Part shown: one piece after another, positions 12,301-59,933 of the stretch
Position numbering within the stretch: the first letter of the stretch is position 1
Layout of the letters: each line of letters opens with the position of its first letter
Assembly (NCBI GenBank): GCA_001247695.2
Contig: LGRX02003775.1
Span: forward strand, 18,319 to 82,318
Reading direction: 5' to 3'
Length of the DNA: 64,000 nt
Source: Cymbomonas tetramitiformis
Lineage: Eukaryota; Chlorophyta; Pyramimonadophyceae; Pyramimonadales; Pyramimonadaceae
Position numbers and translations under genes: made by a program
The notes under the pieces: generated by a model
Databases searched by the model: none
The model's input: the letters and a program-made list of their open reading frames with translations, nothing else
Told to the model about the DNA's origin: nothing

Positions 12301-12390
12301 ACGTCATCACACCATCCACAGTCGAATGCTGCCAATGAGAGAAGCCATGCCTTCATTGAGGACATCCTCAGGTACTTTTCAAATTGTTGA
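9307..12390 (+). CDS. pol: Ty3/gypsy pol: protease, RT, RNase H, integrase (C-terminally truncated)
   Basis: The open frame starts after a TAG at 9304. The protease motif reads VDPGATSSF at about 9529, that is Asp-Pro-Gly instead of Asp-Ser/Thr-Gly. The reverse transcriptase has the finger/palm pattern (KWRMCCDYRALNN, FDFNQFFHQIP) and catalytic FMDD at 10639-10650. RNase H follows (VDGSGTHVGQ near 11135), then an H2C2 zinc-binding region (about 11829-11960) and the integrase core with Asp (LDWITDLP), Asp (SDRDPRF) and Glu (NAANERS). The domain order RT-RNaseH-IN is Ty3/gypsy. The frame ends shortly after the catalytic Glu, so the integrase C-terminus and 3' LTR are missing. A GT at 12374 and an acceptor-like TTTATAG at 12420-12426 leave open splicing to the next ORF. 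Confidence 0.92.
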   Translation, partial: STLRVDQPEDATETSGRVESISEEVLSSLTLQFQQMDNPSEHIAQMQSQTAQLKSQKKLLLYKGKVYGQSTHILVDPGATSSFIDRQFAAQLGIAPTDSSSFSVGLAGGSQLPCTSYLPKATFSLGKYKDAEDFYIIDMKPFTVILGQDWLERRNPHIDFQTKNLTITRKHSSGSSIRTVLSRVEQTPDSDDLPEMELVSATTMRKHLRRIRSSGSAEEAVAYLFFLSEVDGELVFAASDSDTTMEDPEVTAARDQVREDFSDIFQEDLPAGHRPERFEGGYHRINIEPGHKPPSQPVRTIPVPMMEELKRQIIKYVELGILRPSSSPYGCPIIFAPKPGGKWRMCCDYRALNNITIKDTYPLPPHDTLLEQLKGARWFSRFDFNQFFHQIPIRPDDIHKTAIRTRYGSYEWTVMPFGLTNAPATALRVGNRAFFDFIDRFLVIFMDDTIVYSPDFDSHVSHVRQFLQRCREHQFFIRPSKVELFVRSIDFIGHHISEAGLSIIEDRIRAVMAIQPPVSYGPTVGKQPLRRMAKDGKSSLRSFLGMVGQFRRFIPKFSKVAEPLNRLLKDNAEFVWESEQQQAFDNLKSAICNAPVLQLPDQKLPSIMEVDGSGTHVGQVILQDQGKGMKPCGYHSVTLSDTQRRWPIPEIELFAIVEGFRFFRHILLGAPETIVRSDHQPLVYFQTKSTMSPKQARWLDELSEYNFRIEHIAGDKNKVADALTRISALFELTDCLQHMDISEVMPSADPTFIALISSSSAHQLHDIIISEYDRDTFAQTILAKLTSSTSSQAVSSYSFELIQGLIYRKTIYGRQLYIPPTAKVPTDDGEITQLRHILLHECHSATISGHVGKNRMLHLLRSRYYWPGMTTAAIKYIRECPVCQRQKTRRHKPYGQAHIRYSVPKTKWLDVSLDWITDLPITTNGHDSIFVVMCQFSHRCHLIPFSMTWTAQHTASIYMQHIFKLHGLPRNIISDRDPRFTSTFWQTLWKSTGTRLSMTSSHHPQSNAANERSHAFIEDILRYFSNC

Positions 12391-17821: not shown

Positions 17822-18417
17822 GGCTAGCCTGCACTCAAACCCTGAGCAATGCTCGTGCATGTAAATAGTAATTGTGAATATGCTTCAATCCCACGTATTG
17901 TGGGGGGTGTTTTTTTGGTTCTTGACCATATTTGAAACTTGTGAACAGTAGGGATACTTTGCACTTTCATATTTCATCACGGTACCGTTCATGGCGTGAC
18001 TTGCACTCCCGCTTCAAACCCCAAGTCGTTTCAGCTGAACTGGCTAAAAATGAGCCATCCCGCAGCTGTGGAGCACTGCCCTATGAAGTTTTTTTATATC
18101 TCTTGTTTTGAACATTCTTAATTAAGACAAGTTTGAGCCTACAACACCGTTATCCCGTGTTATAGTCAATTTTCACTTATTTTCAGTGTGTCGCGGCTTC
18201 ACGTGACACAAAAATACCCCCCAAAACATTCTAAGCTAGGAGTATGCATGGTCTTTTCATAAATTTTCAACTTACCTTGTTATTATATCATATTTTCAAC
18301 TTTAAAATATGTGAGTATCGCAATAATCTTGTCTTTTAAACAAATTTCAGATATCCCAACTTTTCAGCCATCGTGGAGTGTTTTTGGCTATTTTTTCGGC
18401 TGTAAAATCAAAATTTC
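17822..18417. other. AT-rich non-coding DNA between captured fragment and gag
   Basis: No ORF or motif is recognised. In an autonomous retroelement this interval would hold pol; nothing of pol is seen. Confidence 0.5.
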
Positions 18418-41569: not shown

Positions 41570-42670
41570 TAAATAAACCGTATGTAGGCGGATACCTGTA
41601 TTCACACGCATGATTCCGCTAATCCATGCGGGTAAACTCTTATCCACACGCGCGGATGTATGTGTCCACACGCGTGTTTCAACAAACTCCAATTTCGACG
41701 TCCATACGTATGGATTGGCGAATTCCGATCGTCCATACGTCTGTCCACACGGCGTCCGTACGCATGGGTTCGATCGGTGACACGCCTCCATGGTGCCCAC
41801 ATGGCTGATGAAGGGGCAGGAAATGCTCGGGCACACCCAGGCCCGGGTGCAATGGCTGTCCACACGTGCGGACAAGCGCAAACGAGTGGCGCAGCACGGG
41901 TCTCACACTGTCCATACGTCCGTCCACACGTCGTCCGTACGCGTCCGTACGGTCCAGGGACACGTCCCCATGGTGCCCATGTGGCTGATGAAGGGGCAGG
42001 AAATGCTCGGGTACACCCAGGCCCGGGTGCAATGGCTGTCCACACGTGCGGACAAGCACAAAAGAGTGGCACGGCACGGGCCTCACACTGTCCATACGCC
42101 CGTCCACACGTCGTCCGTACGCATGGGTTCGTCCAGGGACACGTCCACATGGTGTCCATATGGCTGAGGAAGGGGCAAGCAGTGCTCGGGTACACTCAGG
42201 CCCGGGTGCAATGGCTGTCCACACGTGCGGACAAGCGCAAAAGACTGGCACGGCACGGGCCTCACACTGTCCATACGCCCGTCCACACGTCGTCCGTACG
42301 CGTCGGTACCGTCCAGGGACACGTCCCCATGGTGTCCATATGGCTGAGGAGGGGTAGAAGCGGCATTCCTCGCTGTCCGCACGTGTGGACAGCAATTTCC
42401 AACGGTTCATGCGTATGGACGGCACCTATCCATACGGTCGGGCAGTGTACGGAGCGTCCACACGCGTAATAAAATCAGGTAAACTAGCATACGTCGTCCA
42501 CACGGGAGCACACGTATGGACGACGTGTGGATTTATCGTATGGACACCGTATGAACATCACTTTTGCAAATTAGACATTTTCACACGTGTGGATTTTGCA
42601 AAAAAAGCGTCCATACGGCGTCCATCTGCAATCCACGCGTCGTTCATCTGGATTTCCACGCGTGTGGACA
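41570..42670. repeat. right subterminal repeats of element B, with ~180-bp tandem units
   Basis: TCCACACGTGTGGA/TCCATACGTATGGA palindromes fill the region. From about 41789 to 42350 units of 180 bp repeat about three times (starts near 41790, 41970, 42149 and a partial at 42329). Each contains ATGGTGCCCA...GGCTGATGAAGG and GGCCCGGGTGCAATGGCTG. Confidence 0.88.
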
Positions 42671-42691: not shown

Positions 42692-43808
42692 CGTCGGTTG
42701 TCCGGAGGGTTTCCGGTTGGGTCAACATTTCGAGGAGCACACGAAGAAGTTTCGAGTTAGCCAATGGGCGGAAACCACTGTGGCGTGCGTGAATGATGCA
42801 AGGTGAGCGATTTCGTTTTTTCAAGGACCCTTTGAAAGTGCCCTAACTTTCATTTGGACTCTTGAATCACAATCGTCCATTTGGACCTTCGCATGACTGT
42901 CGCACACATATGATGCCGTTAGCATGGTAAAGACTATGTATCGACGTACTAGCGACATCTTAACTGCACTCTAACGTGGCAGGTGCCAAACGGAAGACAT
43001 GATGCGTGCTCTTTGTCACGTAACCGCTTGTAGATTGGAAGCGCGTAAGTCGAGAAACGTCGGCATGGTTCAGATTTACACTTGTGGCCATCGCAAGGAC
43101 GAACCAACTTGCATGACTCCCCGCGACTTTCATCGTTGCGCCCAAGACATGCTAACGACCCTACGGTACCCGTCATGGTTGCCGATCCCGTCCATTTTGG
43201 AAGAAGAACCGGGCAAGGTAATGTACGCCGACCGCGTATTTCCCATAAAATTACGGACACGTGGCGTGCGACATTGTCTCATGTCCATTGCCACTGCAAT
43301 CATGCTCATTGTCGCAGCCTCCATCGATAACACCACCCCTCTCTCGATATTGATACGAGATGTCGACGACTCCCCGCCGCCCGCCTCGCCTTCACCGCGC
43401 CCCGAGCCGATGGCCGACCCCACCGATGACGACACCACCCCTCCTTCCTCCTTGATACGAGACGTCCACGACTCCCCGCCGCCCGCCTCGCCTTCACCGC
43501 GCCCCGAGCCGATGGCCGACCCCACCGATGACGACGCCCGTCCCTCGTCATTGATAGAGAACCGCGTTGACGTGGTAAGCATCGTGGAATCCATTGAGGA
43601 CGACGGCGACTCTTCTGCCGCCAAGCACATTCGGGCTCACGACGGCTTGAAGCTCGTGCAAAACAGTATCGTGTCGACAGTCTGCGCTTGGCCACGAGAT
43701 GAAGGGCAGCCCGCCAATCGATTGGCCAAGCTAGTGGGTAAAATGACCACGATCGTGCGGGAGATCACGACGACACAAGTGCGTCCTAAGGTAAACGGTC
43801 AGGATATA
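42692..43808 (+). pseudogene. element C gene: exon right half and following exon
   Basis: 42692-42808 continues the exon at 23372-23688 across element B (EGFRLGQHFEEHTKKFRV, then a donor GTGAGC). After an intron with C-type repeats, an acceptor at about 42981 opens a long exon (CHVTACRLEARKSRNVG, TCGHRKDEPTCMTPRDFHRC). This exon contains a tandem duplication of about 110 bp encoding RDVDDSPPPASPSPRPEPMA twice. It ends with IVSTVCAWPRDEGQPANRLA and TTIVREITTTQ, which aligns with the last part of exon 5 of the B transposase. The TNP2 core expected before that part is absent. I infer an internally deleted or rearranged transposase. Confidence 0.55.
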
Positions 43809-44424: not shown

Positions 44425-44808
44425 TGTCACAAACCACGGCTTATCGTGTACCTCAGCCGGGTTGTGACACTTGCTGTAGCAGTCTCTGTGACGAACGTAT
44501 GACACGCGCAGTACGATACGCGCGAGGAGTTATGACAGTGACGAGATACGGAAATACGGATGGGTGTTACACTTGTTTGGAGATAGCGAGAATAAGAGGG
44601 GCGGCGAAGCAGGGTGAGCCAGACGCTCATTTTTGTTTTGCCTTCGTAACAGTGATTCCGAAAATAGCCAGGACTCGCTTAAGACCGCGAAAACAGCAGT
44701 GTTATGAAATAATTAGTGAGATACAGTATTCTTCTACTTGTAAAGATATACATTTGTGGACTTGTCCTTGTGCGACTGCGTCAGAACTGTAATTAACAGT
44801 CTTTTTCA
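44425..44808 (+). repeat. LTR segment 'b' at the 5' side
   Basis: 384 bp, about 97.7% identical to 59326-59709. It begins with an inverted repeat TGTCACAA...TTGTGACA (44425-44469), so its first 45 nt could fold as a hairpin. Segment 'a' is missing from this side. Confidence 0.85.
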
Positions 44809-45698
44809 AAACAAAAATGTGCCTTATTACAGACATGTCGTCTGTAATGCTGAGAGTTCAACAGCAGTCCTGAAGAACGAGACCTCTGAATGGTGATGCC
44901 AGGGACGGATTATCCGTACTGGTAAGCCTTGGAAGAGGTTGAGTGAAGCAGGCTGTTGCGACACTCGAAGTTCACCAGTCTTGCGAAGTACAGCGACAGC
45001 GGTCACAGCAGAACCAGTTGCTAATTTTGCGAACATGATTGCAGCGTTGAGAATTATGTACTGGGCTATTTCGGGAAGTGACATCCTGCTGGAGCAAAGC
45101 ACCAGACGGTAAAGCCAGGGACGGATTCATCCGTACTGGTACGCCTGAAGGCGTGGAGCGAAACAGGACTGTCAGTGGGCACCATCACGACAGCTTTCTT
45201 TGTGGTCACTTGACACATGCTGGCGTTCTGCTGACTGACTGCGTGGACCAGAGACACTAAGGGCAGAGGCAACCTTGCTGGACATCTGGGAGAGCCAATA
45301 TAAGACCGGGTCACAGATGGAACCTTGCTCACCAGTCGTGGACGAGATTATCCTGGCAGTGATTGCTACTTAGAGCAAAGCACTGAAAGGTGAGGCCAGG
45401 GACGGATTCATCCGTACTGGTAAGCTGGGAAGTGTGGAGTGAAAAGAGCCTTCACACCAGTATCTCTTCTTCACCAGAAAGGTAGCAACGGAATCCAAGG
45501 CTGACCGCGAGGATCAGCAAAGGGCAGAGAGGCGTGCCCAGAGAGCGATACGAGTGAGCCAGCACTTCACAGAGCTGGAAGGAGAGGAAGGGGCTGCCGG
45601 TGGCCAGCCTGAGGCAAGCACTAGTACAGCCTGAGGCACAAGCACCAGCACAACTGCAAGCCCAGGCCCAGGAGCCGTTAATAATCTTTGAAGAAGAC
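44809..45698 (+). promoter_or_regulatory. retrotransposon leader with three hairpin modules
   Basis: Non-coding leader between LTR and ORF1. A module of GCCAGGGACGGATTCATCCG followed by TACTGGTA(A/C)GC occurs at 44898-44928, 45114-45144 and 45394-45425 (the first copy lacks one base). Each has the palindrome ACGGATTCATCCGT (stem ACGGAT, 2-nt loop). Copies 2 and 3 are also preceded by GAGCAAAGCAC. The end of copies 1 and 3, GGTAAGC, fits a splice donor. Packaging, dimerisation or splicing roles are possible. No primer-binding site is evident after the LTR. Confidence 0.7.
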
Positions 45699-48600
45699 AT
45701 GGAGTACACTGACTACGCTCGTGTCAACCTTGGTACGCTGCCCAACTACACGGGCACCAAGGAAGAAGATCGGCCCAAGTTCCTGAGGGAGTTCGCCGAC
45801 ATGTGCGAGAATTTCGTACGGCAGCACAACGCCAACGTCAGGAAGAGGCTCAGGTCCGGGGCTGGCACTCTCACCGAAGCTCAGATGAAGACCCTGAGAG
45901 AGACTCCCCCTGACTTTGAATATCTGTGGGACATCGTCCCTGCGTGTCTGGCTGGAGAGAACTCACAAGCTCTCAGCTGGTGGCGCGAGAACTATGAAAG
46001 AGGGGGGGTAGTGACCTCCAACATGGACCGAGTCCTGAAGGACACTAGCGAGCATGGCCCACTCGAGGGTACCATCCCATGCGCTAGGCCCCCTTTCAAT
46101 GAGATGAACGCTGGCACCACGTGGGTGATAGCGAGGCCGGTGACGAACCAAGACACCCAAGGGGAGGTTTCCGACGAATATCTGACTGATGGAACCTCCC
46201 TGAAGGGCTTGACGGGACGTGATGGCACCCGTGATACCCAGTACTTCTATGCGCTCAGGGGCTTCATCGCTGCCCTTGACAAGAAGTTCATGATGAAAGG
46301 GACTCAAGAGAAAGTGGATCTGTTGACACAGAAGCCACAGGAGGTGGGGCAGGATGGGCTGACCTACATGAAGATGTGCCAACGCAGGGAAATGCAGCTC
46401 AACACTGGGAAGGTGTTGAGCGATGAAGAGCTGCGTACCTTCATCGAGGACTGCGTGGACAACCTGCGCATCAAGGTCTTCCAGACGCGGGTGAAGGAGC
46501 AACTGAGGGCACAGTTCCCGCCACCCAATCGGGTGACCTGGAAGGACCTGGAGGCCATCGTCGAGGTTCAAGACAAGCTCAAGGGCGATGCAGAGTCTTG
46601 GATCCTCACCTTCCTCCAGGAGATCACCAGACGATGTGGCTGCCAGTACTCCACCTGGGAGGCGCGACAGCATGGCCTTGACCTCAAGGCCATAAAGAAC
46701 TCGATCAAGAAGATTGAGTCCTCTGAGGTGGCGCAGTCAGGCGAACCGGAGAACAGCAAGAAGGTAGATACATCACCTTCTAAGAAGATGAAGAAGGAGG
46801 TGAATGTGGCCGAAAGAGCTAAGAAGGCCTCCTACAACAAGACGCCACCGCCAGCAGAGGGCGTGCGTACGAACGACAAGCCCAAGTGCTTGCGCTGCTT
46901 TGGAGGGGGCTGGCATGAGTCCGATCCCGAGCAGTGCAGGAGTGGTTATAAACACGTCAAGATGCCTGCTGGATTCCACGAAAGCAGGCTTGGTTCCAGC
47001 AAGTGGTGGGACGCGGAGAACGCCGCTCTGCGCATGTATAATCTGAAGAACCGCTTCAAGAACTCTGACTGGGGCATCCTGGTGACGGACTGGCAGCAGC
47101 TGTCCAACGACGAGAAGGACAAGTACAGAGCCAAACAGTCACCGGAGGACAAGCAGAAGAGCACCACTGGCAATCCCGAGGCGTTGAAAGCAGAGTACCA
47201 GGGCATGGTGGCTGCTAGGAAGACTGCCAGTCGTGCGGGCAGCGTGAAGTCGCAGGTGCTGTCCGAGGATGAGGGCTCCGACGAGGAACCAGTCGCAGCG
47301 CACGTCGCGGAGAGGGAGACTCACACCGTCGATGCACGCGCGCACCACCATGGCAGCGCAGGGGTAGGAGTGTCGTCTGGCCCTCCAACCGAGTTACTCA
47401 CAGCCATGGCCGAGGAGATGGGCGAAGAGGAGCTCTCGAGCGCCCTCAACACCTTGGGTCTGGGGGCACTCCCCGAGACGCTGTGCAAGAGTGCGGAGTC
47501 TGAACTCACGGCGGCTCCAGCAGTAGCCCTGGGAAGTACCCAGCGCATGAGGGGCTTCCCAGTGAAGACACCCGAGGAGTACGAGGCAGACGCACAGGTG
47601 CCCATGGCGCCTGCGGCGGACGAGATGCAGAGGAAGGTGCAGCTCATGGCCTCCGTGATCAAGAGCCTGGGAGCAGCTTTCCGCAAGCTAGCTGCTGGAC
47701 TCGTAGCAGAAGGTCGCATAACAGCTCCAAGGGGTGTGGAGACCTTGGTGGAACTGGCTGAGAACAACCAGCTCCCCGTGCCGACAGCCTCAGCAGCAGA
47801 CTGCCAGGACATCAGCGATGAGGATGACGACTGCCCGGGCATGGAGTCGGGCGACGACAGTGACGAAGAAGAGATTCCTCTGGATGAGATGCCGGAGGAC
47901 ATGGTGGAGCAGCCCAGGAAGGGGAGGACGACGGTGCATGTGACAGCTGCAGCGGCCACCGTCCAGGAGAGCTACGGGGTGAGAGACTTCAGCGAGAGGG
48001 GCGAGCTGCACGCAGGGACCATGGAGGCCAAGGCGTACGAGCTATTGAAGAAGAAGATGCTCAGTGGTCTTACAGAGGAACAGCTCACTGCCATGGCGCA
48101 GGTCCAGCCTGTATGCAAGCTCCTGAACGAGTCTCTGGCACAAGGGATGGCGCTGATGGCCTCTGGAGGCTTGCTTATGTTGTACAAAGCGCTTCTCCTG
48201 GACACGGGGGCCAACTGCAACATTATCCCAATCAGGACAGCCAACAGGTTGGGCTTGACCATCTTTGATGCAGAGACAGGGGCCAGGGTGGCGAGATGTG
48301 ATGGCAGCCCTGCGGAATTCACGAAGTACTGCTACGTGGATGTGGTTCTCGCCGCGGGCACGCCGTACATGACTCTGCATCGGCTCCACGCCTTCGTCAC
48401 CTACACCAATGACACGACGTGGGACTTCTTGGTGGGCACTGGACCCCTGAAGAACGCCCTCAAGTTGACCATCGACCTCTACAGAGGCATTGCTACTTCT
48501 GAGGCCGCGGTGTCACTGGGTATGAAGGAGAAGGTCACGTTGCCATTGATCGAGTTGACGCCGCCCGTCGATGCAAGGAGCAAGCGGAATGAAGACCCGA

Positions 48601-51317
48601 GAGTGTGCCTGGCGACCGAGATCTTCGACGTTGATGCCACGACAGCGCGCACTCTTGCCCCCGCTTTTGATGATTGCGAGCTACCACCACGTGAAGCAGT
48701 GTCCCTGGGCGCAAGGGGAGAAGACCGTCTGGCCCTCGCAGGGGAGAGGTGTGCGCCTGCACCTTGTGCATTCTCGCGAAACCACCCCGAGCTGATGGAC
48801 AGCCTGGCGTCATGGCTGGAGGAGATGAGGCTGAGAAGGTTCAACTCGGAGGAGAAGGAGAGACTCGAGGCGCGCTGCCAGTCCATGGTGGAGGCGGGCT
48901 TCCTGAGACCCAGCTCGATGATGCAAGTCGAGCTCACTGGGCGAGTCAGCTTACACACCGAGGGCTCGACGTACGAACCTCCGCCGCCTGGTACGTCCTT
49001 GACAGACCAGATGCTGGGCATGCTACAAGCATCATCACGCAGCCAGCGGGAAGCCAATGTGGCGACCAGAGGCGAGTGGTCCAGTGCTGAAGAGCCAGAT
49101 GCGAGGGGGTCCCGCACGCCAGCCAGCCTGACCACATCTCAGTCAGACCCTCGCTATCCAGACCTCACGCTGGCGCAGGAGGCCGAGAGCGAAGCTGCCT
49201 TCAAGCTGGCCAGAGTACAGCCATGGGGGGGCATGGCAGTGAACCCGTGGGACTACCAAGATAAGGAGAGCAGCTGGTCTCAGCAGCGCCTGTACATCGA
49301 CCGCACGGGCTATGCTCGTCTGTGCGCGCTCTGCGAAGAGGGCGATGGAAGTGGTGTGGACGCAGGATTTGTGCGGGTCAAGTTCTCGCGTTGTGGAGAA
49401 TACAAGACCGTCCTGGAGACGGAGCTACTGTGGCCCGACTTTACGTTGGTGGACCAGAAGGTTGACAAGGAGACGAAGATACCCTCAGAGACCTGGACCA
49501 CGAGGGCGAGCGGCAGGAAGGACAACGACCAGGTCCCACTCCCTGACTGTGGTGCCCATCGGGAGGCTGGAAGGTACACGATGGCGAGTGTTCAGGAGGT
49601 CCTCAACACCCATCAGACGTACCCAGGAGTCGTGACGGGCAAGCTCATGTGGGACAAGGTGGCGCGCCAGTTCTGCGTACTCAGCGAGCACACTCGCGCC
49701 CAATGGGATCTCATGGAGCGCATGGTACGTCACACCATGGAAGGCGTCACCATCATGAACCCCATGGGCAAGATGACTGGCGAGTTCCAGCTGCCTTTTT
49801 ACTATGAGAAGGACCAGCGCTGGCAGTACCAGCATCTAAAGTATGTACAGCGAGTGGACATCGCTGACCTTCGAGCTCGTCTGAAGGTGAGGTACGACAT
49901 GGAGGTGACTGGTGTGGAGGGCGTGAATGTGAATGGGATCCCGCAGCTCACGCTGTCAGACGCAGCGGACAAGGTGGGGAAGTTCTACCCGGTGACAGAT
50001 GGGGAAGGAGGCAGTGGCGAGGTGTTTAGCACGAACGCTGCCGCCGTGGAGTACCTGCATCTGGGGGACAACACGAGAATGATGCTCGGAGCATGCAAGA
50101 CAGAGGAGCAAGCACAGGACGCGCTGGACACTTATGGGGCCAGAAGGAACCCTCCAGTGCGCACATCCAAGACTCTCAGGACGTCGAAGACGGTCAGGGG
50201 GGATGAGGCAGGGCCATCTGGCTCCGCACCGCCACCATCTTCAGCACCGCTTCGTTTACGGCATCAAACCTGGCCCAACGGCGTCTTCGACCCTGCCATG
50301 TTGGAGTACCACGCTGCAGTGTTCCAGGGCACCTACGAGCCGGAGTCGCCCACTCGCAGCGAGAACACAGCTGGGGAAGCCAACTGGCTGGATCTGGGAG
50401 GGATCTCGGAGTTCATGGCGCTGCATGGACAGACGGTCTTCCTCATCCAGTACCGTTGCTTCATGGGCAAGATCGAGTTCCAGCTCGGGAAGCCCTTCGC
50501 GCAGCGAGGAAAGGGGGTGCACACGCAGCGACTCAGCAGCCAGACCCTGCACCGGTACGCTTCCTCCGCAGGAGTGGGACGAAGGGAAGAGTTTCTGCCT
50601 CTGGGTGGGCAGTCGAAAGGCTGCACGGGAGGACTCCTCGGCACCTTGCAGAAACATATGGAGCATCTGGTTGATCGCACTCAGCTCTTGGAGATCGCCA
50701 GAGACCATTTGAGCGATGGCCCACGGCAGGGCACCCTACGGGTTTTCAAGACCCGTGCCAACGCCCGGTCCAAGGCCGTGTATTACCTCTTTGAGGACAA
50801 TCGCTACTACAGTGAGCGGGGACCCAGCAGCATGGCGTTCACCTTGGAGTACCTCTCCTCAGGTACGCGCAAGTTCGACTGTTGCAGCTGGGAGACCTGG
50901 AACAGGGTGGCGGTGATGCACCGAGAACCATTGTCTGCGTTCACATCCTCGGTGGGCCCGGCGTTGCTAGCTGAGGCACGTCGGGCAGAGGTGCAGGCGC
51001 GTCTTCGAAACGACTTCATGAGGTGCCTGGACCCAATCGAGGGAGGGGATGCAGGAAGTGAGGAGGGAGACGGCAGCATCTCAGGATACTCTTCCGACCT
51101 CGCGGCTGTTGAGGGTGTGAGCACTCACACGGGTCGCACCAGAACACCGTCGCCGCTGACAGAGGATGAAGACAGCGTGGAGGTCATCAGTGAAAGACTG
51201 GTTGGGCTGTCTGCCAGGATTGGCGCAGGGGCAGGCCGAGGTCGCAGCAAACCGCCTCACCATGGCGGCTCTCTCGGAATCGATACAGGCACGTCAGGCG
51301 ATCATCAGAGAATATGA
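45699..51317 (+). CDS. ORF1: gag-protease polyprotein (about 1872 aa)
   Basis: The first in-frame ATG is 45699; the open frame extends upstream to about 45600. The N-terminal 300 residues are gag-like (PKFLREFADMCENFVRQHNA, LRTFIEDCVDNLRIKVF, VTWKDLEAIVEVQDKLKG). A zinc-knuckle-like C-x2-C-x5-H-x7-C lies near residue 397 (CLRCFGGGWHESDPEQC). Acidic linkers follow, then a retropepsin motif LLLDTGANCNIIP with the catalytic Asp at residue 835. About 950 further residues have no family I recognise (YIDRTGYARLCALCEEGDG, LFEDNRYYSERGPSSMAF). It is about three times the usual gag-protease length. The frame ends at 51317, overlapping a +1-frame ORF that continues coding. Confidence 0.8.
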   Translation: MEYTDYARVNLGTLPNYTGTKEEDRPKFLREFADMCENFVRQHNANVRKRLRSGAGTLTEAQMKTLRETPPDFEYLWDIVPACLAGENSQALSWWRENYERGGVVTSNMDRVLKDTSEHGPLEGTIPCARPPFNEMNAGTTWVIARPVTNQDTQGEVSDEYLTDGTSLKGLTGRDGTRDTQYFYALRGFIAALDKKFMMKGTQEKVDLLTQKPQEVGQDGLTYMKMCQRREMQLNTGKVLSDEELRTFIEDCVDNLRIKVFQTRVKEQLRAQFPPPNRVTWKDLEAIVEVQDKLKGDAESWILTFLQEITRRCGCQYSTWEARQHGLDLKAIKNSIKKIESSEVAQSGEPENSKKVDTSPSKKMKKEVNVAERAKKASYNKTPPPAEGVRTNDKPKCLRCFGGGWHESDPEQCRSGYKHVKMPAGFHESRLGSSKWWDAENAALRMYNLKNRFKNSDWGILVTDWQQLSNDEKDKYRAKQSPEDKQKSTTGNPEALKAEYQGMVAARKTASRAGSVKSQVLSEDEGSDEEPVAAHVAERETHTVDARAHHHGSAGVGVSSGPPTELLTAMAEEMGEEELSSALNTLGLGALPETLCKSAESELTAAPAVALGSTQRMRGFPVKTPEEYEADAQVPMAPAADEMQRKVQLMASVIKSLGAAFRKLAAGLVAEGRITAPRGVETLVELAENNQLPVPTASAADCQDISDEDDDCPGMESGDDSDEEEIPLDEMPEDMVEQPRKGRTTVHVTAAAATVQESYGVRDFSERGELHAGTMEAKAYELLKKKMLSGLTEEQLTAMAQVQPVCKLLNESLAQGMALMASGGLLMLYKALLLDTGANCNIIPIRTANRLGLTIFDAETGARVARCDGSPAEFTKYCYVDVVLAAGTPYMTLHRLHAFVTYTNDTTWDFLVGTGPLKNALKLTIDLYRGIATSEAAVSLGMKEKVTLPLIELTPPVDARSKRNEDPRVCLATEIFDVDATTARTLAPAFDDCELPPREAVSLGARGEDRLALAGERCAPAPCAFSRNHPELMDSLASWLEEMRLRRFNSEEKERLEARCQSMVEAGFLRPSSMMQVELTGRVSLHTEGSTYEPPPPGTSLTDQMLGMLQASSRSQREANVATRGEWSSAEEPDARGSRTPASLTTSQSDPRYPDLTLAQEAESEAAFKLARVQPWGGMAVNPWDYQDKESSWSQQRLYIDRTGYARLCALCEEGDGSGVDAGFVRVKFSRCGEYKTVLETELLWPDFTLVDQKVDKETKIPSETWTTRASGRKDNDQVPLPDCGAHREAGRYTMASVQEVLNTHQTYPGVVTGKLMWDKVARQFCVLSEHTRAQWDLMERMVRHTMEGVTIMNPMGKMTGEFQLPFYYEKDQRWQYQHLKYVQRVDIADLRARLKVRYDMEVTGVEGVNVNGIPQLTLSDAADKVGKFYPVTDGEGGSGEVFSTNAAAVEYLHLGDNTRMMLGACKTEEQAQDALDTYGARRNPPVRTSKTLRTSKTVRGDEAGPSGSAPPPSSAPLRLRHQTWPNGVFDPAMLEYHAAVFQGTYEPESPTRSENTAGEANWLDLGGISEFMALHGQTVFLIQYRCFMGKIEFQLGKPFAQRGKGVHTQRLSSQTLHRYASSAGVGRREEFLPLGGQSKGCTGGLLGTLQKHMEHLVDRTQLLEIARDHLSDGPRQGTLRVFKTRANARSKAVYYLFEDNRYYSERGPSSMAFTLEYLSSGTRKFDCCSWETWNRVAVMHREPLSAFTSSVGPALLAEARRAEVQARLRNDFMRCLDPIEGGDAGSEEGDGSISGYSSDLAAVEGVSTHTGRTRTPSPLTEDEDSVEVISERLVGLSARIGAGAGRGRSKPPHHGGSLGIDTGTSGDHQRI

Positions 51318-51960
51318 AGAACGACCTCGTACTGCCCACGCAACTGCGAGGATAAGCACGCGCGGGCCAGACTGCCCGGGGCTTGATGATCGTGGTGGCG
51401 CGCGAGCCACGCCCACGCCGGCACCCTACTCTGGCCGAGTGCTCGGCGGGATATCGACCATGGGCCTGGAGTGCAACATGGCACAGAGACCTGAGCACCA
51501 GTCAATCAACGACATTCTGAGATCCCCGGCACATTCCGTCTGCACGCAGCAGACTGAAGCCGTACCTCCAGCTGCGCAAGAGCAGGACTCCGTTTCGTAC
51601 GTGCCATCAACCCCGAGCTCTACAGCACCCAGCAGCCCGGAGCGTTCCTATGGCTTCGTTGCGCATGTCGACACTCGACCTTCAGGCCATCCTGCAGCGC
51701 GCCCGCAGAGTCCAACTGAGAGTGCCGCACAGCAGCGTTCACCACGGGCTGGACAGCGCAGGAGGAGATCTCCGAGCCCCAGGGAAGGCGCTCATCGTCA
51801 GGACGCGGCTCGCGGTCGGCATGCCGGCATGGGCGCGTCGCGTGCTCCCCAAAGACGCCAAAGTTATGATGAGATCTGGGAGGAGAGGAGAAGGGAGAGC
51901 GCACTGGGGCCTTTTCAAGGGGGCACCGGGCCGGCTGCAGCCCGGCGCGCCCGTCACTGA
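51166..51960 (+). CDS. bridging ORF between gag-protease and pol (+1 frame)
   Basis: Coding character passes from the ORF1 frame to the +1 frame near 51215-51250 ([18 protein letters not shown], then [13 protein letters not shown]). It continues through a Ser/Pro-rich and Arg-rich linker to a stop at 51958-51960. The pol frame is already open there and is again in the ORF1 frame. Either two translational shifts (+1, then -1) or two compensating indels link the products. The 51925-51945 region (CCGGGC/GCCCGG) can form a strong hairpin. I see no canonical -1 slippery heptamer in the right phase. The protein has no recognised domain. Confidence 0.45.
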
Positions 51961-52025
51961 GAAGCAGCCCCGGCGAAAAGCCGGGCACGCAGCCCGCCAA
52001 TGATAGGCGGGCGAAGCGCACTCAG

Positions 52026-55000
52026 GTGTGCTTCCTGCTCATGGGGGTGTTCGTGCGCTTGCATTGGCCGCAGCTGCCTCATTTTGCAGTGATGGCAGTA
52101 TGGATGGCTATGGAGGTATTCAGATTTCTTAGTGAGGTCGTCGCCTGCTGGGCATTCCACGCTGACGCGCCCCGCAGAGCCATAGCACGCGCGTTGTGGG
52201 CCATGCGCGCAACGCCACTCGAGCCATGGGCGCATCAACAGGCGCCTCTGCGCGTGCTGTTGGAGCTGGCCAGGCACTTACTGCTGTTGACCAAGGGTGC
52301 TCTTGAGGTAGCTGGGCTCCACCACGCTCGACGTGGGCTGTGGTACGTGCCATTGATACGGTTCTGCCTCGCCATGCTCGCCATGCACTTCACGCACATG
52401 GTCGTCACTCTGGGGTGCGTCTTGACAGTTGGCGCCCACATTGTCCGCCATGGGTTGCCATGCTCCGGCTTGATTCAAGATGGTGGCACATTCGCCGCGC
52501 TGGAGACTCAGGTGGGTCGCGCGCTGGCGGTCGCCCAGCGGATCTTGGCCGCAGGGCCGGCTACGCTGGCCGCTGTTCCACGGCGCATGCAGAAGCCGCG
52601 CTTTGCCGCTCGACTGCAGCGCCTGCAGTTCACGGCCGCTTGCTACCAGGTGGCGCGCTGTGTCTATGTGATATCAGTCTTGGCGCTGGTGGCCTACGTG
52701 GCTGCGGGAGGAGGACTGGGCCGTATGCAAGGGGGGTGGAAGATGTTGACTTGCATACTGACCCTTCACCCTCCAGTTACACCAGTGGGTACCAGCAGAA
52801 TTTTGAAACTTTTGCTGCTGCTAGCGGTGGCTGCTTGGGTGGCTGCCGTGGCCCCTGGGGAGTCTCAGGGCGTGCTGACGATGGGATCGTGCTCGAGCTC
52901 GCCGACCAGATCTGCCAGGACCGCCTGGGAGGACCAGAGGTCTTCGCGCCAATGGGACACCGGATGGGAGGCTATGGTGGCAGAGCAGGACGAGGTGCTT
53001 CCGCACACGGTGCTGGACACGTTACAGCCAGGGGGCACGACCAGGGTCACCAAGGACGAGGCCGCGTGGCTGGACACCGAGCTCAATGCCACCTTTGGAG
53101 GACATCCCGAGTTCACCGAGGAGAATTGGGAGGAGATGCGCAACGTGGTAAGGAGGTGCAGCTACTGCTTCGCCAACAAGCCGCAGGACATCAAAGGCTA
53201 CCATGGGGGCGCGACACATGCGACCTTCGCCATCCCTTTCAAGGACGAGACTAAGGTAGCTTACCAACGACCGAGGAAGTACAGCCCGGGAGAGCAGGAG
53301 ATCATCGACCTGCACTGCAAGGAACTGCTGGAATATGGCTTCATCGAGCCGGCTTCGCAGCACTGCAGACACGCCAGCAACGTGGTGGTTGCAGGGAAGA
53401 AGGATCACGACACTGGACAGTGGACCTCGACGAGGTTCTGCGTCGACCTCCGGAACACGAACCGGTTGTCGCTGAAGGATAACACGTTACCACATCGTCC
53501 AGAAGAGCTCTACCAGCGCGTGGCCAAGGCCAAGTTCAAGACTACCCTGGACGCGACCAAGGCGTTCCACCAGATTCCCATGACCACTGAGGAGGACAGG
53601 GACAAGACAGCGTTCTGGTGGGGCAACCAGCTTTATCGCTACACATCCATGCCGTTTGGAGCAGCTGGAGCAACCGCAGCCTTCATCAGGATCATGGACT
53701 ACGAGCTACGTCACCTGCAACACTGCACGGTGGCGTACGTCGATGACGTGTGCATATACTCAGACACCGCTGAGCAGCACATCAAGGATGTGGAAGCCGT
53801 GCTTCGCACTTTGGGGGATGCAGGGATACGTCTGCATTCGGGCAAGTCGACCTTCGGGTCAGCCACGGTGGACTTCTTGGGCTACCGCATCGGCTATAAC
53901 ACCATTGGCGCGCAGGACATCAAGTGCAAGGCCATCCAAGAGCTGCCCAAGCCTGAGGATAAAACTGGAGTACGCTCCATCCTTGGACTCATGAACTATT
54001 ACAAAGGTCTGGTGGGGGAACCCATGGGACCCAACTACTCAGAGATGGCACGACCATTGAACGACCTGCTCAGAAAGGAAGTGTTGGATGTCAAGGAAGC
54101 TTGGGGGAAGGATCAGGACCAGGCATTGCAAGCATTGAAGGATGCCCTGTGTTCGGGGAGATGTTTGAAGCCCATTGATTACAGCAAGCCCATCTTCCTC
54201 TACACAGACTGGAGCAACCATGGCATTGGCGCAGTGCTGGGACAGAAGGACGAGAATGGCGTAGAGCACATCTGTGTGGTCATCAGCCGCTCGCTGTCGA
54301 AAACCGAGAGACAGTACGCGAGCTTCCAGGGTGAGATGCTGGCGGTGGTGTGGGCCGTCCGCACATTACGACAGTACCTGCACGGGATCCACTTCACGCT
54401 GATCACCGACCATTCGCCGCTCACAACACTCATGGAGAAGGGGGACCTACAAGGTCAACACCTACGCTGGGCCATCAGCCTCCAGGAGTTTGAGTTCACG
54501 GTCCAGTACCGACCAGGTCCGAAGAATGAGAACGCGGATGTGCCATCCAGGTACCCACTGCCCAGCACCGCAGACGAGACTGGTGCCCGTTTGGATCGTG
54601 AAGGGGACCGAGCCAGGGAAGCGGGGCGTGCCGAGAGGCCAACGTGCTGCTTCACAGACGCCATTTGCTTGGAAGTGACCAGGGAGCCACCACTTGGCCC
54701 CGAAGTAAGCCCAGAAGCTCAGGTGGCCAACTACTGCGAGAACATGGTCAGGGAGCAGCTGGGGACCAGTGCAGTCCATCGACTGTTTGATGTGCACTAC
54801 CAAGAAGAGCTGGAGTGTAACAAGGGGGTCATGTTTGACACTGACCACCCGGAAGTGGCCAGGTGCTCGGGCAGGTTGACTCGAGTCGCCTGGGATGCCC
54901 TCAGCCAGGTACGGCCGATCAGGGGTATGCATTCCGGAGGCTCACCAGCGATATACGGCGACGAGACCATGGAGGGTGGTAAGCTCAAAGTGCCGAAGAA

Positions 55001-58000
55001 GATCGACACGAGAGTGATTGACAAGAGCTTCTTCCGGGAAGCCAGAGAAGAGGGCGTGGTCTGCTATGAGCCGTGTGGGGGCCTGTGTGCTGGACTAGAG
55101 ATGCTCTTGCGCTGCGGAGTTAAGGTTAACAAGTACCTCTCCCAGGACATCTCGAAGTCCAGCCAGACGGTAGCCAGGGCCAGGTGCATGGCGCTCAGTC
55201 GCCGTCATCCTGACTTGTTCCGTGCCGAGGCAGCCCACTTGGAGCAACTGCCCAGCAACATCGAAGACACCAGCCTCATTGACCTTGTACATGCAGGGGC
55301 ATTGAGTGGAGAGCAGTGGGTCATGGTGTGTGGATATCCATGCCAGGACCTGTCACCAGCTGGCAAGCTGGCTGGTTTGGAGGGCAGGCACAGCAGACTG
55401 TTCTACCAGGCAGTGCGAGTCCTCTCCACGCTGCAACAGCTGCAGCCTCAGAGACCGCCAGCATATGTGCTGGAAAACGTTTCTCCGCTGTCACACAAGG
55501 AGAACTCAAAGATCAGGAAGGAGGTGTTCCCCATCATCAACAGCGTGGTGGGCCAGCCGGTGTCCTTTGACGCGGCGCGCGCGGGATCATACGCGCATCG
55601 TCTACGAGCATATTGGAGCAATCTGTTCCAGAATCAGCAGTTCAATCTGGTGATGGAGCGGGTGGACCGACCACCAGACAGATACGTGCGCGATATTCTG
55701 CAGCGAGGCTGGAAGCCGCGCAGGGTCGTCACAGGAGACAGGAAGCCCCACTACACCGCCAACGTTGTAGGGGAGCCTATGAGAGTATTGCCAACCATCT
55801 TGGCGACACAAAACTCTCGTGCTTTTCGCGCGCCTCGCGCAGGCACAGTGGTGAGGAAGGGAGATGATGATGAAGTGGGGGAGACCAGAGAGGTCAACCT
55901 GGACGAGAAGGCAGTGGCCATGGGGTACAGCGCAGGTGAGCTGCGCGCGGCACATGGCATGAAAGACGAAGAATTGGCAGGAGTGCTTGGCCTTGCTATG
56001 GACCGAAGAGCAATGGAGCTATTGTATGCGATTGCCGAGGTCAGCACGACCAAACTGCCGAAGAGTGAGGAGAGTGAGGAGGAGGAACATGGCACGCTAG
56101 TTGCCATCCCCATCGCGAAAGCCACCAAGGTGGCTGCCACCTCCGAGGGCACGGCTGAGCCGGTGCGAGCCCAACTAGCAGAGTGGATCACCAGTTCCAG
56201 CGGCTACACCCAGCAAGTCGCGCGACGCCTCAGCCATCAGGACTGGGAAGAACGACTGCAACGCATGTGCAGCCAAGGACAGAAAGGTACACAGGGGCTA
56301 GGCACCGCCGACGCTGTTCCACGCCGCAGGCAGTGGAAGATGGCCTCCATGAAGCTCGCGGGCTACGAGGCACGTCACCGGCAGGCCTTTTCAAGACCTG
56401 GAGACAAGCCAGCAGAGACAAGCTCAGCCCCAGAATGGGCACCAGTGACAAAGGAGAAAGAGATGAGGCTGCCTGAGCTGCCCGACACTACGAGAATGGT
56501 TGCCATGCTAGCCAGCGTAACCAACCAGGAGTCATTCCGAGAAAGATACCCCGATATACACGAGGACGAGCTATGCCTCGCGTGGATCAAGACAGGAGGA
56601 AGAGTGGAGGTGCCCAAGGAGGAATATCACAGGGTAAGGAAGAGGGCAGCGCGTCACCGCTGGGACGAGCTCATGGGCGAGTTATACATGGTCACCGTCA
56701 GTGGTAAGGAGCTGCTGGTGCCCAAGCCCTGTGACAGGATTCAGTTGGTGCGTGAGTACCACGAGAGGACTGGCCATTGGGGCATCAGGCGGACATTGAA
56801 CCTGTTGTGGCAACGCCATTACTGGGCAGGCATGAAACAGGATGTGCAAGCAGTGGTCACTCAGTGCCAGACTTGCCAGAGGGTGAAGACGCACTATGCA
56901 CGGGAGGAGGCGAATCTCACGCCGCTGGAGATCAAGTCCTTCATGTATCGCTGGTCCCTGGATTTAGCGTGGCCCACGAAACGCATCACGAAGGCTGGTA
57001 ACCAACGCGTCTTGGTCATGATTGAGCACTACACGCGATTCGTCGTGTGCGTTCCAATCCCCGACAAGGAGGCCGCCACCATCGCCAACGCATTTCGCTG
57101 TCATGTCCTATCCGTGTTTGGGGCGCCTGCAGAATGTTTGGTGGATGGGGGCACAGAGTTTGAAGGTGAGTTCTCTGCTCTATGCGAGCAGTGTCTCATT
57201 GACCGGAGAGTGACTTCACCGAGTTCCCCAGAGAGCAATGGCTTAACCGAACGGGTGGTACGCACCCTCAAGTTTTGCTTCAAGAAGATGGCCCTCGACA
57301 AGGGCCTGGACTTCGAGTGGGATGAGATGCTCTGGTCACTCGTACTCAGCTACAACGCAGCTAGGCAGCAGTCCACTGGAGTGGCGCCATTCACCTTGCT
57401 GTTCGCTCAGGAAGCCACGGTGCCACCGGATCTTCGTGCCCGGCCCGAATTGGACTTTGGGAAGCAGGAGGAGAAGACACTGGCTGATGATCTGTTACAG
57501 CGAGCCGCCATCGTGAAGAGGCTCATGGTACATGCAGGGTGCAACCTGGAGATCGCTCAGCACCGCGACACTTTACGGTACGAGCACAGGAGGAGTGGCA
57601 GTTATGAGCCGAAGCCGCACCAGTTCAAGGCAGGCGATTTCGTATATATACGACAACAACCGCGCTCTGGCATGGAGGTGGCCACCAAGTCAGCCATCCT
57701 GAAGATAGTCAAGGTGCAAAGAGATGGAGTGGTAGTGTTGGAGGACAGCACGAAGCTGCGGGAGAAGAGCACAGTGCAAAGTATTGCGCCATGTCACTTA
57801 CAAGTGAAAGACCAGTACGACTGCAGTGCAGCCATTCCCAGCAAGCATCTCGCGTGTGAGGTGTGTATGCGAACAGATGGGGAGGCAGCCATGTTGCTGT
57901 GTGACACCTGTAACCGTGGTTATCACACGTGGTGTCTGAATCCAGCGCTGGATGGAGTACCTGAAGGGGATTGGCAATGTCCCAAGTGCTTAGGTGGGAC

Positions 58001-59069
58001 TGTAGTGGCAGCTGCCGCCGAGGTGAGCGCGTCAATCGTTGACAAGATGGCGGCCATGGAGCTGCAGTTGAGAGAGAAGCTGGGATCAGATGTGGTATTG
58101 TTGCCTGCAGACGTGGGTCCGCATCGTGCAGTGAGGCCGGGACGTGAAGACCCATGGCAGGCGCTGAGCTCGCGGCAGATGCTCAGCAGAGAAGGGAGCA
58201 TGGGGGATCTTCCTGACAGAGTGGCCTGGGGAAGCCAGGAGGAGCTCAGCAGGGTGATCACAGAAGTGATGCCAGGATTCTGGCATGAGGGCCATCGTAC
58301 CATCTTGAGCAGGAAGTGTGCAGAACAGCACGCTCGCGCGAGAAGTCTCCGCAAGACGTCCACGGTGCAGGCCATGAGCCCCGAGGAAGTGCAGAAGAGA
58401 GGAGATGTCACACAACTGAGCAGAGCTCAGGTGAAGATTGCCAGCCAACTGGATTGGGGCTTAGAGTTGGTGATGACAGTTCCTCAGGAGGTCAGACGTT
58501 TGGCGCACGAGGTGACTTGGGAGAAGATCACACAGGTATGGGATCCTTGGGCTGGCACAGGTGTCATTGGCAAGATTATGTCACTGGAGTGGCCTCATCT
58601 GAAGGTTATGAATAATGATTGGAATCCGCAGTTGAAGTGGCACGAAGCCCTTAATGCTTTACAACCGGGCAATTATCGGGCCTGGAAGGAGAAGTATGGG
58701 GTGTGTGACGCAGTGGTAACTTCACCCTGGTTCGCAGTGCTGGATATTGCGTTGCCGTTGGCAGTACTGGCCAGCCGAGTGGTGGCTTGTATTCATGTGC
58801 CATCGCACTACATGACAGATATGACAGAAAGCAGGGCACAATACTTTCGTAAGCTGTGCCACGCTGGACGTTTACATGTGATTGGACATTTAGAGCATGG
58901 ACCTATTGGCAGAAGATGCATGTGGGTCATGGTGTTTCGCAACCCTTTGACAAGAGCCAGGATGTTGAGAGGAGGAGAGGCTTGTGGAGTGGGTATGTTT
59001 ACCTTCAGCATGGGCAAGTTCGCAATGGATGGCGTTACAACAGAAGATGCTGAGCAAGCTCTTGTCTAA
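52026..59069 (+). CDS. pol: ORF2: RT-RNaseH-cytosine MTase-integrase-PHD-second MTase polyprotein (2347 aa)
   Basis: Residue numbers count from 52026 (a GTG; the frame is open further upstream, so the true start is uncertain). Residues 1-290 hold several hydrophobic segments ([52 protein letters not shown]). RT has YVDD at 571-574; the RNase H Asp is at 728. At about 1010-1340 lies a C5-cytosine methyltransferase: motif [13 protein letters not shown], catalytic PCQ with Cys1106, motif VI ENV at 1150-1152, motif [12 protein letters not shown], and a C-terminal EKAVAMGY...[10 protein letters not shown]. Integrase follows: H2C2 from 1579, Asp1646, Asp1707, Glu1742, and an SH3-like tail near 1870-1923. 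A PHD finger (C4HC3) is at 1944-1988. The C-terminal domain has DPWAGTG at 2173 and SPWF at 2233, resembling motifs I and IV of adenine-type methyltransferases, with Trp in place of the second Pro. It ends at 59069. Confidence 0.9.
55030..56040 (+). other. C5-cytosine methyltransferase domain inside ORF2
   Basis: The domain lies between RNase H and integrase. It has the catalytic Pro-Cys-Gln at 55338-55346, Glu-Asn-Val at 55473-55481, a DNMT3/DRM-like motif VIII ([11 protein letters not shown]) and the closing motif X region ([12 protein letters not shown]). All key catalytic residues I can identify are present and the frame is intact, so it could be active. The expected reaction is transfer of methyl from SAM to C5 of cytosine in DNA. 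Retrotransposon-borne DNMTs are known from dinoflagellates and charophytes (de Mendoza and colleagues, 2018, from memory). Confidence 0.88.
57855..57989 (+). other. PHD finger inside ORF2
   Basis: The Cys4-His-Cys3 pattern is complete: [19 protein letters not shown], then [18 protein letters not shown] and CPKC. PHD fingers commonly read histone H3 tail states. Its position directly after the integrase tail suggests a targeting module, analogous to the chromodomain of chromoviral integrases. Confidence 0.88.
58525..58960 (+). other. C-terminal Rossmann/adenine-type methyltransferase-like domain of ORF2
   Basis: [14 protein letters not shown] (SAM-binding motif I), NNDWNP (acidic end of beta-2 with the SAM ribose position), AVVTSPWF (motif IV equivalent, S-P-W-F instead of S-P-P-F) and a later [19 protein letters not shown] segment. 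The order fits N6-adenine or N4-cytosine methyltransferases. The changed motif IV leaves activity doubtful. It could be a degenerate or divergent domain. Confidence 0.6.
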
Positions 59070-59104
59070 TGTCTGTGCTACCAGTGGCAGCTACAGATGG
59101 GGGA

Positions 59105-59933
59105 TGTTGAGAAAAGGAGCTTGCACAAGTGGTGAGAAGAGATAAAGAGATATCAAAAATTTTGAGATTTTGTATAGCTACAGTAGCAAGATAACTGTGC
59201 AGTCATATAAGGAAACATATGTCGAGCTAGTGTTGTATAGGCACTGACAATAAGTAAGACTGTCTAGTAGTAGGGCTAGAGGGTTGTGCTTTGTGTGGAC
59301 GCTTCGTGCATAAGTTCGCGACAGCTGTCACAAACCACGCCTTATCGTGTACCTCAGCCGGGTTGTGACACTTGCTGTAGCAGTCTCTGTGACGAACGTA
59401 TGACACGCGCAGTACGATACGCGCGAGGAGTTATGACAGTGACGAGATACGGAAATACGGATGGGTGTTACACTTGTTTGGAGATAGCGAGAATAAGTAG
59501 GGCGGCGGAGCAGAGTGAGCCAGACGCTCATTTTTGTTTTGCCTTCGTAACAGTGATTCCGAGAATAGCCAGGACTCGCTTAAGACCGCGAAAACAGCAG
59601 TGTTATGAGATAATTAGTGAGATACAGTATTCTTCTGGTTGTAAAGATATACATTTGTGGACTTGTCCTTGTGCGACTGCGTCAGAACTGTAATTAACAG
59701 TCTTTTTCATGTTGAGAAAAAGAGCTTGCACAAGTGGTGAGAAGAGATAAAGAGATATCAAAAATTTTGAGATTTTGTATAGTTACAGTAGCAAGATAAC
59801 TGTGCAGTCATATAAGGAAACATATGCAAAGTCGAGCTAGTGTTGTATAGGCACTGACAATAAGTAAGACTGTCTAGTAGTAGGGCTAGAGGGTTGTGCT
59901 TTGTGTGGACGCTTCGTGCATAAGTTCGCGACA
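59105..59933 (+). repeat. 3' terminal a-GC-b-a LTR array
   Basis: Segment a at 59105-59323, GC at 59324-59325, b at 59326-59709, then a second a at 59710-59933. The two a copies differ by two substitutions and a 5-bp insertion (GCAAA at about 59826). The a-GC-b boundary contains the palindrome GACAGCTGTC. The b-a boundary reads TTTTTCA|TGTTGAG, an exact LTR-LTR junction. Confidence 0.85.

Follow-up and report, generated by a model that had tools for sequence, protein, structure and literature searches.

DNA methyltransferases (DNMTs) are carried by retrotransposons of dinoflagellates and charophytes, as an earlier note on the DNA analysed here had stated and as the available text of PMC5890265 bears out. 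The closest described system is KnitGypsy-Dnmt3 of Klebsormidium nitens, in which a DNMT3-type domain lies in the Gypsy Pol open reading frame (ORF) (PMC5890265; de Mendoza et al. 2018). According to the same available text, its Gypsy domains are accompanied by DIRS-like repeats in the order A-coding-B-A-B, and its DNMT is under purifying selection. Here we describe a retrotransposon of this kind from the green alga Cymbomonas tetramitiformis. It lies at 44425-59933 of the window, the whole stretch of 64,000 nucleotides that was analysed (positions 18,319 to 82,318 of the forward strand of contig LGRX02003775.1, here C3042; assembly GCA_001247695.2), and copies of it were sought in the 852-Mb genome. 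The presence of a DNMT in a Gypsy Pol together with DIRS-like repeats is already known from KnitGypsy-Dnmt3; the Pol of the Cymbomonas element also contains a PHD finger and a second domain with a predicted methyltransferase fold. On balance, we lean towards an autonomous, recently active element, Ty3/Gypsy-type in its Pol, with split repeats, a DNMT3 domain, a PHD finger and an N6-adenine-type fold, which would pass through a circle and mark its own copies.

KnitGypsy-Dnmt3 was compared by its published description, and was not recognised among 32 relatives of the Cymbomonas protein found through the C5 methyltransferase stretch. The main text of PMC5890265, in its available form, contains neither 'PHD' nor 'chromodomain' and describes no second methyltransferase in this element, and its account of the element mentions no target duplications, short form or self-primer. 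Two Symbiodinium retrotransposons likewise carry a DNMT, namely SymbioLINE-Dnmt and SymbioDIRS-Dnmt3, the latter with DIRS-like repeats and a Dnmt3-type domain that methylates CG in yeast; both differ in having LINE machinery or a tyrosine recombinase and no DDE integrase (PMC5890265, available text). An adenine-type methyltransferase is also found in DIRS elements with a Dam-like N6-adenine methylase (PMC5890265, PMC6338049, available texts), but these use a tyrosine recombinase, and the C-terminal domain studied here has no Dam family match apart from a weak D12 match in one relative (P0067). The literature covered, which leaves out most subscription papers, yielded no published retrotransposon with a PHD finger and a second methyltransferase in one Pol, no report of this combination under split direct repeats with Gypsy or in Chlamydomonas, and no short form with duplications or self-primer in such elements.

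Chromoviruses are Gypsy elements with a chromodomain after the integrase. The Cymbomonas element likewise places a chromatin reader after the integrase, in this case a PHD finger. Kapitonov and Jurka are said to have described, in 2003, CR1-like elements without long terminal repeats (LTRs) that have PHD domains in ORF1 of the LINE; these are not known to have an integrase or methyltransferase, and Tf1/sushi elements have normal LTRs and no known methyltransferase.

The element shares with Ty3/Gypsy a Pol in which reverse transcriptase (RT) and RNase H precede a DDE integrase, as well as TGTC...GACA ends (TG...CA) and a short target duplication; it has no identical full LTR at both ends. With DIRS it shares the split direct repeats A-coding-B-A-B, but it has a DDE integrase and 4-bp duplications, and no recombinase match was found in ORF1 or ORF2 (Pfam, E 0.1). 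Because the A and B repeats are split, we call it Gypsy-type by its Pol only.

Domain architecture of Pol

Pol (ORF2, 2347 amino acids) is encoded at 52026..59069 on the + strand, as are all features of the element described below. The earlier note had reported an intact frame of this length here; the frame is open, its domains as far as the PHD finger were recognised by Pfam, and the motifs lie where they had been placed. These coordinates hold for the ORF but fall short of the element, whose larger extent was established by self-comparison and from its copies and which includes a second ORF at 45600-51317. The GTG of ORF2 is merely the first possible start: read from the upstream stop the open frame comprises 2398 amino acids, and strong constraint starts near an ATG at 52881.

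The Pfam domain order is RT, RNase H, C5-methylase, integrase zinc finger, integrase core and PHD. RT and RNase H (RVT_1, 1.9e-21; RNase H, 2.5e-32) occupy residues 431-840 (53316..54545), with YVDD at residue 571, and the integrase, comprising an H2C2 zinc finger and a DDE core, residues 1570-1735 (56733..57230). The zinc finger (Integrase_H2C2, 1.1e-16) scored 61.1 bits against a cut-off of 25.5, while the core (rve, 1.8e-7) reached 31.8 bits, slightly below its cut-off of 32.6. The PHD (1.2e-10) and DNA_methylase (4.7e-10) matches were above cut-off, as were those of RT and RNase H.

Located between RNase H and the integrase, the C5 cytosine methyltransferase (residues 1010-1345; 55053..56060) is of the DNMT3 type. 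It contains the catalytic cysteine (Cys1106 within PCQDLS, residues 1105-1110), the EN motif (ENV at 1150-1152) and the RxR motif; DNMT3 is nearest both by sequence and by fold, and the motif order is unlike the rearranged order of DRM. The motif table comprised 27 of the 32 C5-found relatives and the window protein. A scan of viral contigs with the C5 domain returned five weak loci (L039-L043).

The PHD finger (residues 1944-1988; 57855..57989), downstream of the integrase, has a complete set of C4HC3 zinc ligands and scored 41.6 bits against a cut-off of 24. The solved fingers nearest to it are those of KMT2C, CHD4, KMT2D, KDM5, WSTF and BAZ2; the DPF class, PHF21A and AIRE rank lower. Many of these fingers bind the N-terminus of histone H3 when its lysine 4 is unmodified. 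The ADD domain of DNMT3 shares this property, which makes a DNMT3 domain adjoining such a PHD finger suggestive, no more.

Terminal repeats and insertion forms

The element begins with repeat A (384 bp; 44425..44808), whose start, TGTCACAAACC, is common to the nine 5' ends printed and to the 5' ends found in a survey of copies. A stands alone on the 5' side, and the order on the 3' side is B, GC, A, B: the first B (B1) at 59105..59323, the second A (A2) at 59326..59709, a 98% repeat of the first (A1), and the second B at 59710..59933, ending in ...TTCGCGACA, the 3' end of the element. The nine outer 3' ends printed all terminate in GCGACA. The two termini form an imperfect inverted repeat (TGTCACAAA versus TGTCGCGAA), and at the inner joint between B1 and A2 (GACA-GC-TGTC; 59320..59329) both end sequences face one another over two bases, giving the palindrome GACAGCTGTC. 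The same joint is present at the other B1/A2 borders found. Upstream of B1 lies a purine-rich tract, GATGGGGGA (59096..59104), a candidate polypurine tract.

Of the 20 scored copies, 13 could be followed into the flanking DNA on either side; the remaining seven (C17208, C7143, C17107, C4947, C2097, C9087 and C18212) are cut by contig ends or were read on one side, and no outer B end was seen for C18212 within the stretch read. The long form A-coding-B-A-B was found in 10 of the 13 copies and a short form, A-coding-B, in three (C3939, C8609 and C18648). An identical 4-bp target duplication surrounds eight of the 13 insertions, both long (AATC, GTGA, CACT, TCTT and CAAC) and short (CGTA, GGCC and CAAC). 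The window copy and four others have no such duplication. A1 and A2 tended to be more alike in copies with a duplication (0, 1, 1, 6 and 7 differences) than in those without (3, 6, 9, 11 and 11), although both groups are small and their values overlap. Copies that lack a duplication, including that of the window, are probably recombinants or misjoins.

Two further junctions were observed. The window copy (from 59934 onward) and the copy on C17842 (L012) have a common 3' flank, 99.4% identical over 500 bp, and different 5' flanks. At the end of contig C17208 (L010, 966-1079), the B-A joint passes into the leader, which reflects either a joint of tandem or circle-like kind or the point where the assembly stops.

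Copies, selection and relatives

The element is young and present in many copies, of which the count gives a minimum, since 20 out of 19,513 first-look candidates were scored; all 20 contain the same frame. Selection was measured on eight copies returned as loci, the window copy included, a sampling that favours intact copies. The pooled ratio of nonsynonymous to synonymous polymorphism (pN/pS) was 0.08 for RT and RNase H, 0.15 for the C5 domain, 0.13 for the integrase, 0.03 for the PHD finger and 0.14 for the C-terminal domain.

It is extremely improbable that the frame arose by accidental joining of neighbouring genes, as a chimera or as an assembly artefact. The window copy itself lacks a duplication, and its A1 and A2 differ at nine positions, as large a difference as the mean between different copies (8.5-9.5), so that this copy may have arisen by recombination or by misjoining of two insertions. 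However, the frame shared by all 20 copies and the same domain order in other subfamilies and organisms refute this explanation for the family. The one-off chimera that the earlier note had allowed for can be set aside, because the domains are retained in further copies and subfamilies.

Among named proteins, the nearest belong to C. tetramitiformis, with up to 99% identity over the C5 stretch and up to 95% over the C-terminal piece. Because the 32 relatives were gathered through the C5 stretch, relatives lacking C5 could not appear among them. A PHD pattern is present in 23 of the 32, and several of the remaining nine are fragments. The C5-integrase-PHD set recurs in Cymbomonas subfamilies, in Scenedesmus sp. 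PABB004 and in metagenome proteins. Of the 21 proteins used for the trees below, that of the window included, 12 have the C-terminal domain (11 of 20 relatives), in P0051 and P0061 over little more than 100 residues; it was not found in the Scenedesmus pol.

Trees of RT, C5 and integrase were built from the window protein and 20 of the 32 relatives; with P0063 dropped on account of its short RT, 20 sequences were common to all three. The trees had 10 to 12 of 17 splits in common, and supported conflicts were limited to two pairs between RT and C5 and one between C5 and integrase, with none between RT and integrase. As these histories are largely in step, they point to long common descent, and the clade seems to have kept the set for a long time instead of having acquired it by a recent accident.

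Other domains were seen in some relatives. G-patch-like matches (about 1e-4, at or just under cut-off) lie between the C5 domain and the integrase in P0062 (1276-1325) and P0070 (1166-1198), and P0069 has a chromodomain match besides its PHD finger (9e-5, 22.8 bits against a cut-off of 25.1). A Tudor-like stretch (W-G-x-x...YEDG-like) follows the PHD finger in P0062, P0065 and P0070-P0072, as judged by eye, but not in the window element; it had no Pfam match in those relatives that were scanned.

The C-terminal methyltransferase-fold domain

The C-terminal domain (residues 2062-2347; 58209..59066) carries DPWAGTG as motif I (residue 2173; 58542-58562) and TSPWF as motif IV (within residues 2232-2236; 58719-58733). 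The predicted model has a class I S-adenosylmethionine (SAM)-dependent methyltransferase fold, in agreement with the expectation of the earlier note. The adenine type that the note had also proposed is upheld in part: in a finer fold comparison adenine-N6 enzymes were among the closest solved folds, while the Foldseek ranking of the same model was led by O-methyltransferases.

No convincing family match was found in Pfam, NCBIfam or PHROGs, the nearest approach being the D12 match of P0067 (0.0037, sub-threshold). A profile search of protein databases with the domain, in which the best 7998 candidates were scored, returned 46 proteins and no family outside such elements; the 46 are annotated as hypothetical protein or Methyltransferase of Cymbomonas, or are unnamed. 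Scans of viral and prokaryote contigs gave 81 and 62 pattern-matching stretches, respectively, and no relative. Among viral proteins, the closest folds were those of generic methyltransferases from giant viruses and phages.

The domain could instead be a degenerate, non-catalytic fold, serving as a binding or structural module that holds, for example, SAM, nucleic acid or the integrase complex. We regard this as a serious alternative, although not the likelier one. The missing family match is in keeping with it, as is motif IV, whose third residue is Trp and not Pro (SPWF instead of the usual xPPx, [DNS]PP[YFW]). Motif I or IV is altered in several relatives: motif IV is lost in three of 30 aligned rows and, by eye, appears altered in P0057, P0059, P0060, P0061 and P0066, which are outside these rows. 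However, motif I, the acid after strand 2 and S-P-x-F (27 of 30 rows) are retained in most of the rows, and the pN/pS of the domain is as low as those of the C5 and integrase domains.

Alternatively, the domain may be an RNA N6-methyladenine (m6A) enzyme that marks the RNA of the element or of the host, and not DNA, which we consider rather unlikely. In the fold comparison METTL5 reached a Z of 12.7, followed by KsgA and Dim1 at 11.5-11.7, but the DNA enzymes HsdM, M.TaqI and PacII scored the same as METTL5. With regard to substrate, the fold Z cannot separate DNA from RNA enzymes.

A model of replication

The border between A and the leader has an exact complement within A, over 11 nt as tested in 15 of 15 copies and over 13 nt when the printed sequence is read. 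The candidate primer-binding site is CAAAACAAAAATG (44807..44819), at the end of A, and its exact reverse complement, the candidate self-primer and RNA 5' end, is CATTTTTGTTTTG (44628..44640). The probability of finding an exact 11-mer for this border in A by chance is about 9e-5, and the first 20 bases of the leader contain no TGG, as a tRNA primer would require. Tf1/sushi elements prime themselves with about 11 nt of the RNA 5' end, adjoining the LTR. The complementarity fits self-priming of the Tf1 type, with a putative RNA start near 44628.

Ordinary reverse transcription would then yield a cDNA whose LTR is B-GC-A; the integrated ends nevertheless lie at the internal GC. We infer the following route. 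RNA initiated inside A would be reverse-transcribed by Tf1-like self-priming on its own 5' end, and the cDNA closed to a circle. The integrase would then open the palindromic B-GC-A joint (GACA-GC-TGTC) and insert the element with a 4-bp target duplication, a circle with one joint giving the short form A-coding-B and one with two joints the long form A-coding-B-A-B. If a two-joint circle were opened at either joint by chance, A-B-A-coding-B would be expected as well; because this form is absent from all 5' ends read, something would have to break the symmetry of joint choice. During or after cDNA synthesis the DNMT3 domain would place 5-methylcytosine (5mC) on the cDNA, the second methyltransferase domain may modify either the cDNA or the element RNA, and the PHD finger, which belongs to a type binding the H3 N-terminus, would keep the integrase-methyltransferase complex on chromatin.

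CpG and mutation signals

Among the eight copies of ORF2, synonymous G>A changes were about threefold more frequent at CG (19/138) than outside CG (27/640), whereas C>T changes were not distributed in this way (5/161 versus 18/632). This strand-lopsided signal would fit a methylated first-strand cDNA. In the 5' part (nine copies, all sites) the corresponding values were 32/480 versus 95/1938 (p 0.14), with a CG strand contrast of p 0.08. Methylation scars were therefore set aside as support, as the ORF2 signal was not replicated in the 5' half. G>A singletons exceed C>T in both halves (49 versus 22 and 94 versus 45), where G sites also outnumber C sites. The observed/expected CpG ratio of ORF2 is 0.70, versus 0.99-1.04 in three other stretches of the window. 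This depletion is not tied to the DNMT, because a DNMT-less Gypsy element in the same window (7929-12390) is lower still, at 0.53.

ORF1 and other features

ORF1 (1905 amino acids; 45600..51317) occupies the gag position and has a protease-like stretch at residues 865-907 (48192-48320). In Pfam it gave no gag match, and aspartyl protease families appeared only at a sub-threshold 0.01-0.02. Ahead of the RT, residues 1-285 of Pol (52026..52880) form a hydrophobic region with, in the window copy, three 19-residue stretches above Kyte-Doolittle 1.6; its pN/pS of 0.41 indicates the weakest constraint among the ten segments measured. Hydrophobic, membrane-like stretches ahead of the RT recur in P0062, P0065 and Cymbomonas subfamilies, while P0068 has none, more than 1000 residues preceding its RT motif. 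The MGSC start at 52881, after these stretches, resembles a myristoylation motif. Short tandem duplications lie upstream of the element (42004-42307 and 43330-43533). The Gypsy element at 7929-12390 is an ordinary one with gag and pol, and gave no DNMT or PHD match.

Discussion

The C5, PHD and second methyltransferase domains are kept by selection, and the element may thus chemically mark its own new copies. A writer-reader-writer function of Pol, by which the earlier note had supposed that new copies could be methylated and integration steered to marked chromatin, is plausible in anatomy, judged from sequence and predicted models, and unproven in function. Several results weigh against the self-marking Gypsy-type element that we favour: the altered motif IV and the Foldseek ranking of the second domain, the absence of A-B-A-coding-B, the 5' part that did not reproduce the G>A signal, and the stronger CpG depletion of a Gypsy element without DNMT. 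In addition, the DNMT3 domain of KnitGypsy-Dnmt3 gave no methylation in yeast, a result that its authors judged inconclusive (PMC5890265, available text).

A more far-reaching reading is that Pol is a complete chromatin editor, which would read the H3 tail and write both 5mC and N6-methyladenine on its own cDNA, the circle being opened at the palindromic joint, in a widespread clade that takes in two or more green algae as well as many relatives from the environment. We hold this to be possible but doubtful. It is more improbable still that the methyltransferases serve a conflict with host silencing or with viruses, as a decoy, a device balancing silencing or a weapon against competing DNA elements. 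An antiviral role has been proposed for retrotransposon methylases (PMC6338049, available text), and Cymbomonas harbours many endogenous viral elements (PMC10675990, available text), but no sequence feature that we saw suggests an outside target.

Beyond what the earlier note had described, the element shows split A-coding-B-A-B repeats, a short form, ends of the integrase type and a self-primer match. Split repeats combined with a DDE integrase pose an unsolved replication problem, and the range of models becomes smaller once the short form is taken into account. The element is a workable system, in that it has young copies whose frames are intact and whose target duplications are exact. Elements with a DNMT3 domain beside a PHD finger are now seen in Cymbomonas, in Scenedesmus and among environmental relatives. 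Should the second domain be active, a single mobile element would possess the enzymes for two kinds of methyl mark, and the question of why transposons carry silencing enzymes would become testable in one protein. Were the chromatin-editor reading true, the element would be a self-contained source of double DNA marking.

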